Below, piece after piece: positions 2,915 through 29,260 of a stretch of DNA of 49,295 bases (positions within the stretch are counted from its first letter, which is position 1; every line of letters begins with the position of its first letter). The position numbers and the translations under genes are program-made. The DNA comes from Erysipelotrichaceae bacterium. Its GTDB lineage: Bacteria > Bacillota_I > Bacilli_A > RFN20 > CAG-826. The notes beneath the pieces were generated by a model. It had not been told where the DNA came from and did no database searches. It saw only the letters and a list, made by a program, of their open reading frames with translations. Location of the stretch: NCBI GenBank assembly GCA_012837435.1, contig DURD01000011.1, positions 68,024 through 117,318 of the forward strand. The letters run 5' to 3'.

Positions 2915-3076
2915 ATTTTTGTTAGCGTATCTTACGCAACCAGCAAGTTTTCTTGTGTCAATGCGGTTGTACGCTTTAATAATTAAATTATTATATTCTT
3001 GTTGAAAAATGCTTGGCAACATATTCGACAAAAAATATTTGAACGAACTTTTTATAATGTTCAGAAAGGAAATTTT

Positions 3077-4195
3077 ATGAAAGTGTTGAAAAGACAATAC
3101 TTAGTGGCCTTTTTTGTATGTTTAGCAATGCTGACCGTTACGGGTTGTAACACAGGCGGTGGTAAAAAAGAAGCGTCGACAGCTTTTTTATATTCCGCAT
3201 CAACCTTCTATGAAGGAACAACCTACAAACTTAATTTAAAAGGTTTGGACGACAACACTTGCACGCTAACTTGTCTGCAGGCCGAAACACCCATTGACCT
3301 AGAAGGAACCTGGGCTTTCAGTCAAACAAATGGCTATTCGTTTGATTTTGGAAACAAAGCGAAAGTTCTTTCGGGGTACAATTCTTACACCAAGGTGCAT
3401 TACTCCAATTACACCATTAATTTAACAGCCACGGAGAAGATAAGATTAATGATGACTTATTCTGATGACACGTTTGTCGTGACCGACTCTTACGTCGATC
3501 CCTATGACGTTGTTCAAGGTGTATGCGTATACGAAGGTAACGCTAAAACTACTAAGGAACTCATTAAACTTCGTGATTTTGGCGATGGAACATTTGATGT
3601 CATATCTTATGGTTCTCAAAACATCTTCGATTATGGCACTTACGTCGATGCAGACGGCGTAAGAACTTACACCAACAAAGAGGGAACAACATTTGTAAGA
3701 GATGTTGGCGAAGGCACCGGAAACTATCGAATTGTGTACATCACCTCCGTCAAAATGATGTTTGGTAGCACTAATTATGAGAATAAGCTCTACCATCTCT
3801 CTGGTGATTTAGATTTAGATGCAGCGTTTCCAGATCCTAGAGGCGATAAGATTTATATCTTCAAAGGAACAAATACTAATGAGTTCAAAGAACGCATGGA
3901 CACCTACGCCGCTGGATCGGTAGAAGCAGATCTCATATTGTTTAGAAATGCCGATTCACAACAATACGAATTGAACATCCAGGTCGGTACTTCAGATTGG
4001 TTCAATCAAAAAGGCAATTGGATTGAAGAAGGGGGTGTAATTACCTTCACGTCCAACGATCGCAACCCAGTTACTTGGACTGGTTCAGCCACTGGAAACT
4101 TCGATTACGTTGTTCAAAAGAGCCAACCAGGTCCTCCGGGAATGGGTGGTGGCACTATTGAGGTTACTTTCCATTTCACCTTAGTGCAACAATAA
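3077..4195 (+). CDS. Lipoprotein of unknown function
   Basis: Start MKVLKRQYLVAFFVCLAMLTVTGCNTGG with lipobox; SD agaaagga upstream of 3077. Confidence 0.85.
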   Translation: MKVLKRQYLVAFFVCLAMLTVTGCNTGGGKKEASTAFLYSASTFYEGTTYKLNLKGLDDNTCTLTCLQAETPIDLEGTWAFSQTNGYSFDFGNKAKVLSGYNSYTKVHYSNYTINLTATEKIRLMMTYSDDTFVVTDSYVDPYDVVQGVCVYEGNAKTTKELIKLRDFGDGTFDVISYGSQNIFDYGTYVDADGVRTYTNKEGTTFVRDVGEGTGNYRIVYITSVKMMFGSTNYENKLYHLSGDLDLDAAFPDPRGDKIYIFKGTNTNEFKERMDTYAAGSVEADLILFRNADSQQYELNIQVGTSDWFNQKGNWIEEGGVITFTSNDRNPVTWTGSATGNFDYVVQKSQPGPPGMGGGTIEVTFHFTLVQQ

Positions 4196-4213
4196 AGATT
4201 GCGAGGTACAATA

Positions 4214-4813
4214 ATGGACTTTAAGAAACTTAACACCAAGGAAAATGCAAAAAGAATCCGTATAATCTCTATGATTCTATCTCTCATAGCAATAGTGGTT
4301 ATCGGGTTATCTTCCATTGCACCAATCATCAGAGCTTACATTCCAGGAAGTATGGATCCAGAGTTCGATTGGGGAGTATACCCAGGCCAAGAATTTCTTG
4401 GCTGGCAAGTGACCTTCGTCCATTGGGGTACGAACATCCCAATTGCTGATCGACGTGCCTTCACGACGAATCCACTAATGGTAATGGCAATGGTTGGTAC
4501 ATGTTTAGTTCTTCTTATCACGATGTTGATGATGAGAAGAGGCAAAAGATTAAAGAAAGGCATTTTGGAATTAGTAGCAGCGGCATTCTTGATTTTCACC
4601 GCTATTGTCTATTTCTCAGCCTGTCCTATTATCTTAACAACCGCTGGCAATTTAACGCTTGACGCTTTGACAGCCGCTAATAATTTGGGCAACTATCATC
4701 TCTGTTGGTATGCCATATTTGTGGGGGTTGTCTCCCTAGTTATTGCAATCGCTAAATTAGTTTCCGCGGCATTCTTCATCGGTTTCAGAAAAACTGATGA
4801 TATAAAGAAATAA
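4214..4813 (+). CDS. Integral membrane protein (about 4 TM), unknown function
   Basis: MDFKKLNTKENAKRIRIISMILSLIAIVVIGLSS... hydrophobic segments; SD gcgagg. Confidence 0.8.
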   Translation: MDFKKLNTKENAKRIRIISMILSLIAIVVIGLSSIAPIIRAYIPGSMDPEFDWGVYPGQEFLGWQVTFVHWGTNIPIADRRAFTTNPLMVMAMVGTCLVLLITMLMMRRGKRLKKGILELVAAAFLIFTAIVYFSACPIILTTAGNLTLDALTAANNLGNYHLCWYAIFVGVVSLVIAIAKLVSAAFFIGFRKTDDIKK

Positions 4814-4833: not shown

Positions 4834-7800
4834 ATGAAACGTAAATACGTAGTATTAGCCACCTCAGTAGGTGTCGCTGTAGTATTAGGCGCTCTCGTCT
4901 TTACTGCTGGTGGTTTAATGAACGCCTACTCAAGAATCATGGATGGTTATCTTGGTGCTGGTGATATGATTGTCAACAAGCACGCAGATTCTGAAGACTG
5001 GGAAGGCAATTACATTGAGTTCGAATGCAAAAATGTTGATGAATCGTTTGAATATGCTACAAGAACGAACAAAAGAATCGCAGCAGAAGGCATTACTCTA
5101 CTCAAAAACGAAAAGCTAGCGAATGGAAAAAATCTTCTTCCATTAGCGGCCGGTAGCAAACTTACACTGTTAGGTAGAAACTGTGGTCACCACGTTACCG
5201 CTCCAACCGATGACGTTGCTACTAGAGATGGTGGCGTCCAAATGGGCGTCGCACTACAAGAAGCTGGTTTTGACCTTAATATGTCTGCTTGGAATTACTA
5301 CAAAGGCATGTCTCAAGTTAATAATGGCTCGGGCGAAATAAATCCTGCGGACGAAGGGTACCAAACAAACGTTGCTGCCACCTATGACACATACGGCTCA
5401 GGAACAGCGTTAATTCTTCTCCGTCGTTCATATTCTGAAGGTAGTGACCCTGCCATCGATATGGGTGATGCCGAGAACAACAGAACGGCCTTATCTCTTT
5501 CCGCAAATGAATTAGATTTAATTAAAGAAGCCTGTGCACATTTCCAAAATGTTGTGATGGCAATTTCTTCTCCAAATGCGATGGAATTAGGTTTCTTGCT
5601 TGATGGAGCCAATTACACAGATCCTTTTACAAATCAAACCTATGACTTTTCTAAAGTTAAAGGTGCTTACTGGATTGGTGGTATTGGTATTACCGGTGCT
5701 GAGAGTTTTGCTAAAATTCTCAAAGGTGAAATCAACCCATCAGGTCATCTTGTCGATACCTATGTAAGAGATAATCTTAATGACATTCCAACCTCCATCA
5801 ACTTTGGAGAATTCAAATACACCAATGTTCAAGATGCCCCAGGTGATTTCTATCACAGAAATAACTACACTGTCGAATATGAAGAAGGCATCTATGTTGG
5901 TTATCGATATTTTGAAACTGCCGCATATGAAGCTAGTAAAGGCAATTACGCTGGTTTCGACTATGACGGAACAGTTGTCTATCCATTCGGTTATGGTTTA
6001 AGCTATACGGATTTCAAATATGAATATGTCGGCAATCCTAGTTATGATCGCGGCACCGAAACCTATACTTTCAAAGTTAAAGTCACAAATACTGGTGCAG
6101 CAGCAGGCAAGACTCCTGTTCAAATCTATGTGAGCGCACCTTATACAAAAGGTGGCATCGAAAAATCTCACGTCGTTTTAGGAGGCTTTACCAAAACTGA
6201 TATCATCGCTCCAGGTGCATCAAGCACTGTTGAAGTTGAAGTTCAAAAAGATTACATTGCTTCCTACGACTACAAAGTCAACAAATGCTATGTCATTGAA
6301 GCAGGTGATTATTTATTCTACTTATCAGATAATGCTCACTCATGGGCCGAAATTAGAGCAGATGACACCAGCAGAATCCACAAGATTCACATGGGAGAAA
6401 CAATCTATAAAGGCGATAAGAAGAGAGCCTCTGATAAAGTCGCAGCAGAAAATCTTTTTGATAGAGATTTAAACTGGAAGTTTAAAGAATACAACGAAAA
6501 CACTGTGGGTAGTGGCTATTGCACCAACCTCACACGTGCTAATTTCAAAGCTTCTTATCCAACCGCTCCAGTCGATGGCGACTTAGTGGCAAATGACTAT
6601 TTGCTAGAATGTTTCAAAGTTTACGAACCAAGCGCTGACTATTCAGCTAATACAATATCCCCATATCACGATATTGAGTTATTCGAAGAAGAACAACTCG
6701 TTGAGCAAAATCGTGGAACTCTACAACTCGCTGATATGAGAGGGGTTGATTTCTATGACGAATCATGGAAAACATTCATTGACCAACTATCACTAGAAGA
6801 ACTACAAACCGCTTTCTTAGTCGGTGGTTGGGGTGATCGTGCAATCGAATCTGTGGGTGTTCCAGCCACATCTGGCGGAGACTCCCCATCGGGCATTATC
6901 TCCTTCCGTTTGAAAAATACAAGAACACACTATCCATACTGTGCGGAAGTCTTATTAACCGCGACATGGAACGTTGAACTTGCTCGTGCTTATGGCGACG
7001 CTATGGCGGAAGAAGCTCAAGCCCAAAGAGGCAGAACTGGTGGTCAAGCTTTCAACTACTTATTTGGTCCTGGTGCAAATACACACAGAACACCATTTGG
7101 TGGTAGAAACCACGAATACTATTCAGAAGACTCGTTAATCGCTGGTAAAATGCTCGCTGCAGAAGCCAGTGGTGCAGGCGAAAAAGGTTTAATCATGCTA
7201 CCTAAACACTGCGCGCTAAACGAACAAGAAACCGTGCGTCAAGGTAGAAATGATAGCAACCACACAACATACACCTCATTCGTTACCGAACAAGGCTTAA
7301 GAGAAATCTATATGAGACCATGGGAAATCTATGCTAAAGAAGCCAAGAGAAATGTCAGATACTACAATGATAATGGTGAATTTGAAACCGTAGAAATGAC
7401 CGCTGCTTCAGCGCTGATGCTTTCCTATAACAGAATCGGTGGCGTCTGGTCTGGTGGATCACCAATTATCTACGGCATTTTGAGAGAAGAATGTGGATTT
7501 ATTGGTACATGTTTCACTGATGCTGGTGGAACCAAGAACGAATACTCAAATACTGACTTTGGTCTAATGACCGGCGGTGTAACGTCTTGCTTAATGGATA
7601 GCCCTAGCGGATTCAAAGATGGAACATCAAATACCGCTATCTACCGTTTGAAAGAAGCTGCACATTATAAGTTATATAATGTCGCAAACGGCAACGCCTT
7701 ACTAGGTATTACTCCTGGATCATATATCACTTATACCATGTCACCATGGCAAATTGGCTTAGCAGTCTCTTACAGTGTCTATGGTCTGATAGTGGCTGCT

Positions 7801-7878
7801 CTCGCGGCATTGACAGTCTTCTTATTCGTTAACAAAGCTGGCGATTATGAAAAAGTCAGAGTCGTCGACGAAGAATAA
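4834..7878 (+). CDS. GH3 family beta-glycosidase with permuted domain order (GH3-C, Fn3-like, then GH3-N TIM barrel) and TM helix at each end
   Basis: GH3-C/Fn3 motifs (GEINPSGHLVDTY, YPFGYGLSYTDFKYEY) precede TIM-barrel motifs (GDSPSG, LPKHCALNEQETVRQG, EECGFIGTCFTDAGG); TM at about aa 7-30 and near C-terminus. Confidence 0.92.
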   Translation: MKRKYVVLATSVGVAVVLGALVFTAGGLMNAYSRIMDGYLGAGDMIVNKHADSEDWEGNYIEFECKNVDESFEYATRTNKRIAAEGITLLKNEKLANGKNLLPLAAGSKLTLLGRNCGHHVTAPTDDVATRDGGVQMGVALQEAGFDLNMSAWNYYKGMSQVNNGSGEINPADEGYQTNVAATYDTYGSGTALILLRRSYSEGSDPAIDMGDAENNRTALSLSANELDLIKEACAHFQNVVMAISSPNAMELGFLLDGANYTDPFTNQTYDFSKVKGAYWIGGIGITGAESFAKILKGEINPSGHLVDTYVRDNLNDIPTSINFGEFKYTNVQDAPGDFYHRNNYTVEYEEGIYVGYRYFETAAYEASKGNYAGFDYDGTVVYPFGYGLSYTDFKYEYVGNPSYDRGTETYTFKVKVTNTGAAAGKTPVQIYVSAPYTKGGIEKSHVVLGGFTKTDIIAPGASSTVEVEVQKDYIASYDYKVNKCYVIEAGDYLFYLSDNAHSWAEIRADDTSRIHKIHMGETIYKGDKKRASDKVAAENLFDRDLNWKFKEYNENTVGSGYCTNLTRANFKASYPTAPVDGDLVANDYLLECFKVYEPSADYSANTISPYHDIELFEEEQLVEQNRGTLQLADMRGVDFYDESWKTFIDQLSLEELQTAFLVGGWGDRAIESVGVPATSGGDSPSGIISFRLKNTRTHYPYCAEVLLTATWNVELARAYGDAMAEEAQAQRGRTGGQAFNYLFGPGANTHRTPFGGRNHEYYSEDSLIAGKMLAAEASGAGEKGLIMLPKHCALNEQETVRQGRNDSNHTTYTSFVTEQGLREIYMRPWEIYAKEAKRNVRYYNDNGEFETVEMTAASALMLSYNRIGGVWSGGSPIIYGILREECGFIGTCFTDAGGTKNEYSNTDFGLMTGGVTSCLMDSPSGFKDGTSNTAIYRLKEAAHYKLYNVANGNALLGITPGSYITYTMSPWQIGLAVSYSVYGLIVAALAALTVFLFVNKAGDYEKVRVVDEE

Positions 7879-7905
7879 CAGACAGCACACATTAAAAAAT
7901 TCGTT

Positions 7906-8113
7906 TAGTTGATGGAAAATTACCCATCAATTAGACGCACACATTTCATTATTTCTCTTTCAATCCCCTGGCTTATAGGGACCTACGAACCTATAAGCCC
8001 TCGGGATGAAGGGAAAGAGTACAAACAAACAATTTCATTTAGACCGCTCCTGCGGTTAGATATGAAACTAACTTGGATGCTTCACTAAAATTAAAAGAGG
8101 CATCCATTTTTTT
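7906..8113 (+). ncRNA. Candidate structured RNA / structured 3' UTR: four consecutive hairpins ending in an intrinsic terminator
   Basis: Stems 7906-7915/7924-7933; 7955-7961+7963-7967+7970-7979 / 7990-7999+8003-8007+8013-8019; 8033-8038+8043-8047/8052-8056+8062-8067; 8074-8083/8097-8106 followed by TTTTTTTG. Confidence 0.45.
8074..8113 (+). terminator. Rho-independent terminator (downstream of GH3 gene)
   Basis: tggatgcttc-N13-gaggcatcca then ttttttt. Confidence 0.75.
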
Positions 8114-8336
8114 GTTTTGAATTTTTAACTCGTTTTCTAAAGCAACAAAGATATGAATAAAAACGCCATTAAAAGTGTTAAAAGAATAAGATTGAAAACC
8201 TCGACTATTACATTTGTGGTGAAGCGTGATAAAAGCGTCACGCATTATCTTGTTTAGATGTGAGATGAACAGAAACTTAATAACATATTTGATATTTAAT
8301 AAAAAATAATTAATTTCACATAAGTCACATAAGTTA

Positions 8337-8407
8337 TGCTAACGTTTGCATTTTTCTTAACATTTTTAAAAAGTGTGCTAAAATGTAGTCAAGTGCTAAC
8401 GTTTGCA
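8337..8407 (+). promoter_or_regulatory. Sigma-A-type promoter flanked by two identical LacI-family operators
   Basis: TGCTAACGTTTGCA at 8337-8350 and 8394-8407; -35 TTAACA 8357-8362, 16-bp spacer, -10 TAAAAT 8379-8384. Confidence 0.75.
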
Positions 8408-8422
8408 CAAACGTATTCATAA

Positions 8423-10777
8423 ATGAAAAATAAAAAAATTCCTTCGTTTTTGGTTCTTTTTCTAACATTAGTTAGTCTTTTTGGTTGCCATCAAAAAGAA
8501 AATAATGTAGACGGGATGACGAAATTTAATAACGATCCAAATAAAGCTTCTTTAAGAGCTCTTTTAACTTTTGATGATGACAAAGATAACTTATATAAAG
8601 TGAAAAACGTCGCACAAAAAGGGGTTTTTTACGATGTTGAAAATATGCGAAATGATGTTTCCGCTAATCAATTTTATGAAAATCCTTCTCCTGCTTATCG
8701 CTTTGATAGTACCGTATCGGGAAAAGCTCTGAGTTTTGATGGCTATTCTAACTTTATAGACATGGAAAATTTCTTTTCTCAAACTACCGATTTCACTATC
8801 GATATGTGGGTGGGATTAAGAAGTTACGATTTAAATGATGTGACGCGTAACATCACACCATTCGTGGAATGTTATTCGACGTTTGATGACAGTGGTTTTA
8901 TATTTGGTTTTAAGAAATTCGGTACTTGGGGAGTGCGCATTAAGACTACTGCTGGTTGGCAAGAAGTGTGGTGCGACGAAACCCTCAAGCTCTATACATG
9001 GAACGCCGTCTCTTTTTCTTTTAACGCTGGTACGGTTAATCTATACCGCAATGGTATTTTGGAAAAGAGTCAATTTGTCGGTGATATTTCTTTAAGTGGC
9101 TCTGAAACAATGTACATCGGCCGCAACACCTTCAATCAACAAGCTCCTTCGGTATTTCCTTATAACTATTTAAGTGGAGCAATCGACGAAGTAAGAATTT
9201 ACGATAAAGCTCTCGATGCGGCAGCGATTAAATCTCTAGCAGACTTATATATTAAAGACGGCGAGATCCCCGCTTTATCGTTTAGAGCTATGAATTATCC
9301 CAGCAACTATTTAAACGATAATGTCTATAGAACATTGTGGCACGGCTTACCCTCTATCAACTGGGTTAGTGACACTAATGGAGGATTTTATTATAAGGGC
9401 AACTACCATCTCTTTTTCACTAAGTCAGATTTAGGTCCAGACTTAGGAGGGCAAACTTGGGGGCATCTTGTTTCCCCTGATATGATTAGTTGGCACGAAG
9501 TCCAGCCCGCTATTCACTGTGGAGACAATGATTACGATAATCGTTGGGTTTTCGCGGGCAGTGGAGCGGTAATCAACGATGTTCCTTACCTGTTCTATAC
9601 CGGCTTTATTCTTGATGATTTTTCGAAAATATTTTCTTGTACAATTTCAATGTGCAAACCTAAAGACTTAAACGACCCGGATTTAGAACAATGGGAAAAG
9701 ATGCCCGAAGTAAAGCTCAAATTACCGCCTGGTTTTAAGTCTGATGAATTTAGAGATCCGCAGGTGCACATTGAGCACGATACCGCTTTTTTATTCATTG
9801 TTTCGCGTCGTGCAACTGGCGGTAATCCAGTTATTTTAGGTTTCAGTGCTCCTCTCAATGATATTACCAATTGGTCCTATCGAGGAGTGGTCTTTGAAGT
9901 TGATTATTCTCGACACAAACACCTGGGATATATGTGGGAAGTACCAATTTTCTTAAGATTAACTAGCCCCTCTGGAAACAAAGTTAAATACTTGCTCGCT
10001 ATCGCTCCAATGAATGAAGTGGGTTTAAGCAATGACTCCATTTATCTTTTGGGGGATTTTGATTGGGAAACATGTCGTTATACAGCCGACAATCTCAATG
10101 CTCAACGATATGATTTTGGCAGTGATTATTTTGCTTGCTCTGGTGGACAAGTGTATGATCCAATGCTAGACCATATCATTTTATTTGAAACACTTCAATG
10201 TGGTTGGAATTTAAGCGGTCATAACCGTTACCATTCTAGCTACAGTGCAGGGTTTACGATGGGGAGATATTATTCTTTAGATGAAGAAGGTAACGCGGTA
10301 GTGAACCATATCGACTATTCTTCCATCTACGGAAAAACCCTTTTAACACTTAATGATGTTGCTGCCAGTAGTTTAGAAGATTACTACAAAGTAGGAAGAA
10401 GTTACCGCTTAGCTTATAAGATGCGTTTAGGTTCTGAAAGTCATAAAGCAGGCTTTGAAATTTTATCCAACAAGACTGGTAGTGAAGCCTTCTCATTTTA
10501 TTACGATGTCAACAAACAGACTTTTACTATTGACGAGATGAAAACTAGTAATCCAATTATGAAACAAATTAGTTTCATGGATTATGTTTTTGATTCAAAT
10601 AGAGAAATGGAAATAGAAGTATTTGTCGATCAATCATGTGTTGAGATTTATATCGATAATTGCCGAGCGATGAGTGGTAGAGCTTTCAACAACTTGGACT
10701 GCGAATATATTAAAGTTCTCGGTAGCGATTGGACAATTAATGATTTGGTAGTTAATGAAATGAAAAGGGTTTATTAA
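8423..10777 (+). CDS. Lipoprotein with LamG/ConA-like domain + GH32-like (clan GH-J) glycosidase domain
   Basis: Lipobox LFGCHQK; LamG-like KALSFDGYSNFIDM..DFTIDMWV..AIDEVRIYDKAL; GH32-type INWVSDTNGGFYYKGNYHLFF, EFRDPQV, MWEVPIF. Confidence 0.88.
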   Translation: MKNKKIPSFLVLFLTLVSLFGCHQKENNVDGMTKFNNDPNKASLRALLTFDDDKDNLYKVKNVAQKGVFYDVENMRNDVSANQFYENPSPAYRFDSTVSGKALSFDGYSNFIDMENFFSQTTDFTIDMWVGLRSYDLNDVTRNITPFVECYSTFDDSGFIFGFKKFGTWGVRIKTTAGWQEVWCDETLKLYTWNAVSFSFNAGTVNLYRNGILEKSQFVGDISLSGSETMYIGRNTFNQQAPSVFPYNYLSGAIDEVRIYDKALDAAAIKSLADLYIKDGEIPALSFRAMNYPSNYLNDNVYRTLWHGLPSINWVSDTNGGFYYKGNYHLFFTKSDLGPDLGGQTWGHLVSPDMISWHEVQPAIHCGDNDYDNRWVFAGSGAVINDVPYLFYTGFILDDFSKIFSCTISMCKPKDLNDPDLEQWEKMPEVKLKLPPGFKSDEFRDPQVHIEHDTAFLFIVSRRATGGNPVILGFSAPLNDITNWSYRGVVFEVDYSRHKHLGYMWEVPIFLRLTSPSGNKVKYLLAIAPMNEVGLSNDSIYLLGDFDWETCRYTADNLNAQRYDFGSDYFACSGGQVYDPMLDHIILFETLQCGWNLSGHNRYHSSYSAGFTMGRYYSLDEEGNAVVNHIDYSSIYGKTLLTLNDVAASSLEDYYKVGRSYRLAYKMRLGSESHKAGFEILSNKTGSEAFSFYYDVNKQTFTIDEMKTSNPIMKQISFMDYVFDSNREMEIEVFVDQSCVEIYIDNCRAMSGRAFNNLDCEYIKVLGSDWTINDLVVNEMKRVY

Positions 10778-13669: not shown

Positions 13670-14653
13670 TTACTTAATTTTTTTCACTGAATCACGACTG
13701 ATTAAGAATGGTTTTAGACAAACATGCTGTGGTTTCATCTTAGGATCGTTTATCCTATTTTTAATTATTTCATTAGCGACAAAAGCAATATCTCTAAAAG
13801 GGTGAGAAATAACCGTTAAACCTAAATACTCAGCCATATTGACATCATCATAACCAACAATTGAAATATCTTCTTTAACCCTTAGATTTAGATTGTTTAA
13901 GCAACGATACAGAGAATGAATCATTATCGCGCCAACAGGAATGATAGCAGTATGCTCTTTATTCCTTAACACCTCCATCATCGTGTCATCGATATTGTCA
14001 TTAAATCTTAGTCTAATGATATTTCTTTTTTTATAAGGTAAATTTGCTTCCTTAAAAGCCCGTATATAACCTTCATCTCTATGGGTAGGAACCGCTAAAT
14101 CATAATCAATTAAAGCGATATCGCGATGCCCATTGTCAATAAGCTCTTTTGTAGCTAGATACGCCCCGTATGCATCGTCGATGGCTAAAAAATCAAGTCC
14201 ATCAAATTTGTGACGGTATAGCTGTAGACCAGGTACTTCATTAGCGACTAGCATTGGTTCGATTTTGGCATCAGATTCCCCGGTGGGAGTGAATAAAATC
14301 GCTCGTACTTTAGAAGACAATAAAGAGATGATATTGGAGTATTCTAAACTAGCATCTTCTTCTGAAAACATAATGAGCATTTTCATATCGCGATTATCTG
14401 GTAGAGCATTAAATCTGGTAATAACTTTTAGGTAAAATGGGTTATTTGAATCGGAAATAATAACCCCATAGGTGTTTCTTTTGTTGAGTTTAAGATTGCG
14501 TGCTCTAGTGTCGGGAATGTAATGTAATTCTTCGGCTACGGCCAGAACTTTTTTCCTAACCTTTTCGCTGATGGATTCGTGATTAGAAAAAACGCGTGAT
14601 ACTGTGGATACTGAAACCCCAGCTTTTATAGCAACATCTTTACTGGTAATCAT
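13670..14653 (-). CDS. LacI-family transcriptional regulator
   Basis: HTH MITSKDVAIKAGVSVSTVSRVFSNHESISEKVRKKVLAVAEELHYIPDTRARNLK; periplasmic-binding-like C-domain. Confidence 0.97.
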   Translation of the reverse strand: MITSKDVAIKAGVSVSTVSRVFSNHESISEKVRKKVLAVAEELHYIPDTRARNLKLNKRNTYGVIISDSNNPFYLKVITRFNALPDNRDMKMLIMFSEEDASLEYSNIISLLSSKVRAILFTPTGESDAKIEPMLVANEVPGLQLYRHKFDGLDFLAIDDAYGAYLATKELIDNGHRDIALIDYDLAVPTHRDEGYIRAFKEANLPYKKRNIIRLRFNDNIDDTMMEVLRNKEHTAIIPVGAIMIHSLYRCLNNLNLRVKEDISIVGYDDVNMAEYLGLTVISHPFRDIAFVANEIIKNRINDPKMKPQHVCLKPFLISRDSVKKIK

Positions 14654-16335: not shown

Positions 16336-16476
16336 TGCACACCTTTGCATTTTCTCTTTGACAATCAATTTTCTTTGTTTAATACTATAGGTGAAGTCAG
16401 TTGTTTTATTACCGCAAAGGGTTGTAAGTATTTTGTTTACAACAATTTATTCTCAACATTTATGCAAACGTTTGCA
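16336..16476 (+). promoter_or_regulatory. Two LacI-type operators (TGCACACCTTTGCA 16336-16349; perfect TGCAAACGTTTGCA 16463-16476) with promoter-like TTGACA at 16358-16363
   Basis: Palindromes read directly; perfect 14-bp palindrome at 16463. Confidence 0.75.
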
Positions 16477-29198: not shown

Positions 29199-29208
29199 CT
29201 AAAGTAAG

Positions 29209-29234
29209 TTGGGGGGCGATTTTTCGCCCCTCAA
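29209..29234 (+). other. Intercistronic GC-rich hairpin (UUUU loop)
   Basis: ttggggggcga-tttt-tcgcccctcaa; no following T-run. Confidence 0.7.
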
Positions 29235-29260
29235 TCTGCTAGAATCGAGGTGATTTAAGC

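Follow-up and report, generated by a model that had tools for sequence, protein, structure and literature searches.

Long structured 3′ UTRs and 3′UTR-derived sRNAs of bacteria are usually poorly conserved between species, and IS transposition is one process that diversifies 3′ UTRs between close species (PMC7821165). Hairpins that derive from mobile elements and could terminate transcription have also been described, as in SPRITE and other MITE-type terminator-like elements (PMC10969869). The DNA analysed here (the window, a stretch of 49,295 nt) carries four tandem hairpins, H1 to H4, between a GH3 gene and a GH32 gene, and these can be set beside both kinds of system as well as beside the intrinsic (Rho-independent) terminators of Bacillota operons and the antisense orfB hairpin of IS3-family elements of the IS150 group.

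With the Bacillota terminators the locus shares its placement behind the final gene of a unit and a GC-enriched 10-bp stem that leads into U7, but it differs in the 13-nt loop of H4 and in the three further strong hairpins in front. With the antisense hairpin of IS150-group elements it shares the H4 stem, the G-U position, the spacing, the flanks, and the orientation opposite to orfB, whereas the window has neither a transposase frame nor a recognisable end repeat, its loop has decayed, and its U tract is longer. Like long structured 3′ UTRs and 3′UTR-derived sRNAs (PMC7821165), the locus has an extended stretch, from stop codon to terminator, that is predicted to fold. As in SPRITE and other MITE-type elements (PMC10969869), the hairpin probably derives from a mobile element and could terminate transcription; unlike them, the window's copy is single in its genome and has neither terminal inverted repeats nor a copy family. 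We regard 7902-8113 as likely to be a long, strongly folded 3′ UTR of the GH3 (operon) transcript that ends in an IS-derived intrinsic terminator.

Gene setting and predicted folds

The locus comprises the following features.

4834-7878, + strand: GH3 gene whose domain order is permuted; 23 nt separate its end from H1 (ORF and Pfam)
7902-7937, + strand: H1, a 14-bp hairpin with an 8-nt loop and two G-U pairs (-18.1 kcal/mol, z -8.3)
7952-8019, + strand: H2, a long arm built of three stacked helices, the apical one a 10-bp stem, GGCUUAUAGG/CCUAUAAGCC (z -4.5 for 7950-8020)
8033-8067, + strand: H3, the hairpin TTTCAT+ACCGC/GCGGT+ATGAAA (arms 8033-8047/8052-8067; z -5.0)
8049-8150, - strand (orfB direction): probable remnant of an IS3-family element (IS150 group), from its 3′ end, which encodes the orfB C-terminus (DNA similarity)
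8074-8106, + strand: H4, a predicted 10-bp terminator stem, TGGATGCTTC/GAGGCATCCA, with a 13-nt loop (arms 8074-8083/8097-8106; z -4.6)
8107-8113, + strand: U7 tract of the predicted terminator, TTTTTTT (sequence)
8337-8350, + strand: putative LacI-type operator copy 1, TGCTAACGTTTGCA (sequence)
8357-8384, + strand: promoter-like site for GH32, TTAACA-16-TAAAAT with TG (consensus match only)
8394-8407, + strand: putative LacI-type operator copy 2, TGCTAACGTTTGCA, identical to copy 1 (sequence)
8423-10777, + strand: GH32 gene (fructan/sucrose hydrolase type), the next transcription unit (ORF and Pfam)

The Pfam domains of the GH3 protein follow the order Glyco_hydro_3_C (87-357), Fn3-like (429-499), and Glyco_hydro_3 (674-901). 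Two ORFs ahead of the gene, 2999-4195 and 4199-4813, have no Pfam or NCBIfam match, and a search of 15 other genomes of the genus at E<=1e-10 found nothing for the first of them. A LytTR response regulator and a GHKL sensor kinase are encoded as a pair on the - strand at 707-2864, just upstream of the GH3 unit. On the other side, GH32 comes with its own promoter-like site and pair of operators, and the natural reading would be that the hairpin stretch closes one unit and sets it apart from the separately controlled GH32 unit. Judged by their sequences, the LacI-type operators and a LacI-family gene likely make up a fructan/sucrose regulon. The gene for the LacI-family regulator (13670-14653) is located between operator sites, and ahead of a second GH32-type gene, at 16463-16476, the operator recurs in perfect form, TGCAAACGTTTGCA.

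A preliminary description of this DNA had reported four tandem hairpins in non-coding DNA, the last one with U7; a check of the sequence found all quoted arms where they had been placed, and no ORF of at least 100 aa runs across 7906-8113. The arms given for H1 (7906-7915/7924-7933) are right, but the extent and the count of one G-U pair fell short, as the full arms, CGTTTAGTTGATGG/CCATCAATTAGACG, span 7902-7937 and form 14 bp with two G-U pairs. Likewise, the three stacked helices of H2 are in place (7955-7961/8013-8019, 7963-7967/8003-8007, and 7970-7979/7990-7999), but the outer helix has a competing register, approximately 7952-7960 with 8008-8016, and H2 and H3 as originally drawn fall short of the most stable fold by 3.8 kcal/mol (-40.2 vs. 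-44.0). On the + strand, both non-Watson-Crick pairs of H1 form wobbles; with H4 counted as well, all three such pairs are G-U on that strand. By sequence, H4 has the make-up of an intrinsic terminator, namely a GC-enriched stem with a U tract directly 3′ of it; its 13-nt loop exceeds the loop limit of the terminator scan used.

The preliminary description had also proposed a comparison with dinucleotide-shuffled controls, and this placed the 208 nt far below the shuffles, with a minimum free energy of -70.1 kcal/mol against -37.1 ± 3.9 (z -8.4) and none of 200 shuffles as stable. Taken singly on the + strand, each of the four hairpins was more stable than every one of its 500 shuffles (z-scores in the list above), and H1-H3 without H4 reached a z of -8.3 on the same strand. 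When the strands were compared over the whole stretch, the + strand was favoured (-70.1, z -9.1, vs. -65.5, z -4.7, for the - strand). The GH3-GH32 gap has the lowest + strand z among the 21 intergenic gaps of the window, and it holds the sole cluster of at least two strong hairpins in approximately 295 kb sampled from the same genome (the window and further stretches, with 25.5 kb non-coding). On these grounds, the hairpin cluster is confirmed as real and as a genuine outlier for its own genome. Elsewhere in the window, the 62-nt gap at 29199-29260 between two large ORFs folds into a very strong hairpin on either strand (z -5.5 and -6.2).

Similarity of H4 to IS3-family ends

DNA searches of 196 family genomes, 279 order genomes (H1-H3 only), and 395 class genomes gave convincing matches only in the H4 zone. 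Nearly all strong matches to H4 come from IS3-family elements, where they fall at the end of orfB, which is read on the opposite strand; the matched elements carry rve, rve_2, rve_3, and HTH_21 domains. The IS-like zone consists of H4 and its flanks, approximately 8049-8122 and more weakly to approximately 8190, and it aligns to the region that holds, on the opposite strand of intact elements, the final codons of orfB, the transposase gene. In those elements, the aligned region forms a terminator-like hairpin that faces inward, against orfB. The window aligns with intact elements at 71-79% over 71-102 nt, the 71-nt alignments standing at 77-79%, and at 71.6% over 141 nt with L009, a copy in genome G106 that has lost its transposase yet still resembles an IS end; the BLAST E-values of these window-to-IS alignments refer to a tiny database.

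Since palindromic sequence and flanks rich in U can produce misleading matches, the flanks were tested with the hairpin left out. Flank similarity held against L009 (right p=0.0005, left p=0.025) and against L015 (right p=0.003, left p=0.017), and was weaker against L011 and L012, for which not all comparisons were significant. The hairpin itself has the same stem as the IS ends, with the G-U pair in the same position and nearly the same spacing (a span of 31 or 32 nt). The window retains all ten stem pairs, this G-U included, alongside a diverged loop and a U tract lengthened to U7; this pattern suggests that the H4 hairpin may have been retained for use as a terminator.

H4 and its flanks are probably the remnant of an IS3-family (IS150-group) insertion sequence. 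What is present is at most a truncated remnant and not an element, because the - strand codon series falls out of frame within the hairpin (through alignment gaps) and the IS tip is unrecognisable: upstream of 8049, the window shows no similarity to the tip GGGTACCCAGTTTCCTAGACA, and neither a terminal inverted repeat nor a target-site duplication was found. Furthermore, 8049-8422 contains no transposase ORF. H3 straddles the apparent junction, as the IS-like stretch takes in its 3′ arm but not its 5′ arm. Two IS3 copies from the genus, L086 and L087 (50-55% orfB identity), were considered as the source of H4 and rejected, since their antisense hairpin has another stem.

It is a lesser possibility that H4 is a plain intrinsic terminator without any mobile-element history, its likeness to IS ends having arisen by convergence. 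An unrelated terminator in genome G112 (L076) has the same stem, GGATGCTTC/GAGGCATCC, with dissimilar flanks, so the stem alone may be a product of convergence. In addition, similarity is inflated by flanks rich in U, and some of the IS flank comparisons are non-significant. However, convergence on the stem would leave unaccounted for the conserved G-U position and matching span, as well as the similarity that continues beyond the hairpin into the flanks, which is best to L009. The H4 motif is also rare, occurring in 9 of 116 family genomes, and most of those places are IS ends.

Descent from an IS end remains the reading we prefer. A decayed IS3-family (IS150-group) element, with its transposase on the opposite strand, would most likely have supplied H4; RNA polymerase arriving from GH3 would copy H1-H3 and then stop at H4 with its U7, and by this stop the GH3 unit would be kept from reading through into the GH32 unit controlled by LacI operators. 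H1-H3, if active at all, may act as stable folds that guard the 3′ end from exonucleases and lower read-through. U7 comes right behind the final gene of the upstream unit and ahead of the promoter-like site and the two operators, a position that argues for termination at H4. Weighing against the preferred reading are the 13-nt loop, which is long for a strong terminator, the unrecognisable IS tip and inverted repeat, and the L076 stem shared without flanks, together with the result that no such transposase was found in the window's own genome, in a search run without a positive control.

Relatives and possible roles of H1-H3

The preliminary description had recognised no known family in the stretch, and the Rfam run agrees with it: across all families, the whole window gave no match at gathering score, and with a permissive local scan included the best sub-threshold hit was MAT2A_A, at 23.2 bits against 40. 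DNA searches found no sequence relatives of H1-H3 in 279 order genomes or approximately 395 class genomes, and a single-sequence covariance model of H2 and H3 matched only itself among 116 family genomes. Because bacterial 3′ UTRs diverge fast (PMC7821165), missing relatives of H1-H3 do not amount to missing function. A REP- or MITE-type repeat within the genome was rejected, the stretch being single copy, and phage and plasmid DNA gave no match to it. Viral contigs yielded five matches to the degenerate palindrome at the core of H2, and these were taken as chance.

The neighbouring genes have few counterparts as well. The best GH3 matches in the genus are only 46% identical, a search of genome contigs found one distant GH3 relative, and GH32, tried as a synteny anchor, had no match at E<=1e-60 in 15 relatives from the genus. 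Three members of the genus have a nested double hairpin directly 3′ of a related GH3 gene that is 46% identical (L020:4474-4560, L021:4474-4560, and L022:4483-4570); it was not accepted as homologous to the hairpins of the window, as local alignment to the window stayed at shuffle level.

The homologues found keep only H4, an outcome which the preliminary description had named as counting against its proposal of a structured RNA, and these homologues are IS3-family ends and not orthologous 3′ UTRs. The part of that proposal that concerned a structured 3′ UTR fits the fold beyond chance, the + strand bias, and the lack of an Rfam match; the part that concerned a stand-alone or 3′UTR-derived sRNA found no support, as there is no promoter-like site close upstream of H1, the nearest listed site on the + strand being at 7122-7151.

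It is unlikely that H1-H3 with H4 as terminator form a functional RNA, either derived from the GH3 3′ UTR or a stand-alone sRNA, that acts in trans on other mRNAs. The stability of H1-H3 by themselves on the + strand, the uniqueness of the cluster in the sampled genome, the + strand wobbles of H1 and H4, and a terminator whose U7 would suit the 3′ end of an sRNA are all consistent with such an RNA, but it would have neither relatives, by DNA or by covariance model, nor an Rfam match nor a nearby promoter-like site. Quite unlikely, too, is a combined form in which H1-H3 would be a structured RNA specific to this lineage, either self-standing or processed out of the GH3 mRNA, that owes its 3′ end and stability to a terminator captured from an IS150-group transposase gene on the antisense side.

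H1, and perhaps H2, might instead be sites in DNA, either protein-binding dyads or small palindromic insertions. H1 is a near-perfect 36-bp dyad flanked by an exact 9-bp direct repeat, GCACACATT, at 7885-7893 and 7937-7945; however, its mismatches are + strand wobbles, the fold favours the + strand, no second copy occurs in the genome, and a 9-bp repeat at such spacing can be chance, which makes this origin improbable. The repeat around H1 could also be a duplication or the target-site duplication of a small hairpin insertion. Least credible is a riboswitch- or attenuator-like 5′ leader of GH32 in which H1-H3 would sense and H4 would switch: the + strand upstream of GH32 does carry a structured stretch with a terminator, but the H4 arms have a mutual pairing probability near 1 and no competing antiterminator, the GH32 promoter-like site and operators come after H4, and none of the promoter-like sites lies close before H1. 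For H1-H3, the analysis arrives at no explanation beyond 3′ UTR structure.

Antisense hairpins in IS150-group elements

The likeness of H4 to IS ends touches on a feature that may be wider. In a number of IS3-family elements, a terminator-like antisense hairpin with a U tract occupies the same place in the last orfB codons, with different stem sequences. Its carriers include IS150 (in an E. coli K-12 plasmid record), ISKpn8, and elements of Lactococcus, Lactiplantibacillus, Flavonifractor, and related MAGs; the orfB 3′ ends concerned are L011, L012, L015, L086, L087, L096, L097, L098, L101, L102, and L105. A search of the available literature found no published account of antisense terminators in IS150, which is no proof of novelty. 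A hairpin against orfB is possibly a general feature of the IS150 group. It would shield the transposase from antisense transcription that enters from outside, and it could provide ready-made terminators once an element decays. In this respect, the window offers a worked case in which an insertion sequence apparently supplied its inward-facing antisense terminator to the end of a host transcript.

When the antisense fold was compared with synonymous-codon nulls, it exceeded them at p<0.05 in 10 of the 11 carriers (Flavonifractor, p=0.11), a figure that describes a set picked by its fold, with three close relatives among the carriers, and is no unbiased survey. The same test was positive in 0 of 5 other IS3 elements and in 0 of 16 upstream control stretches.
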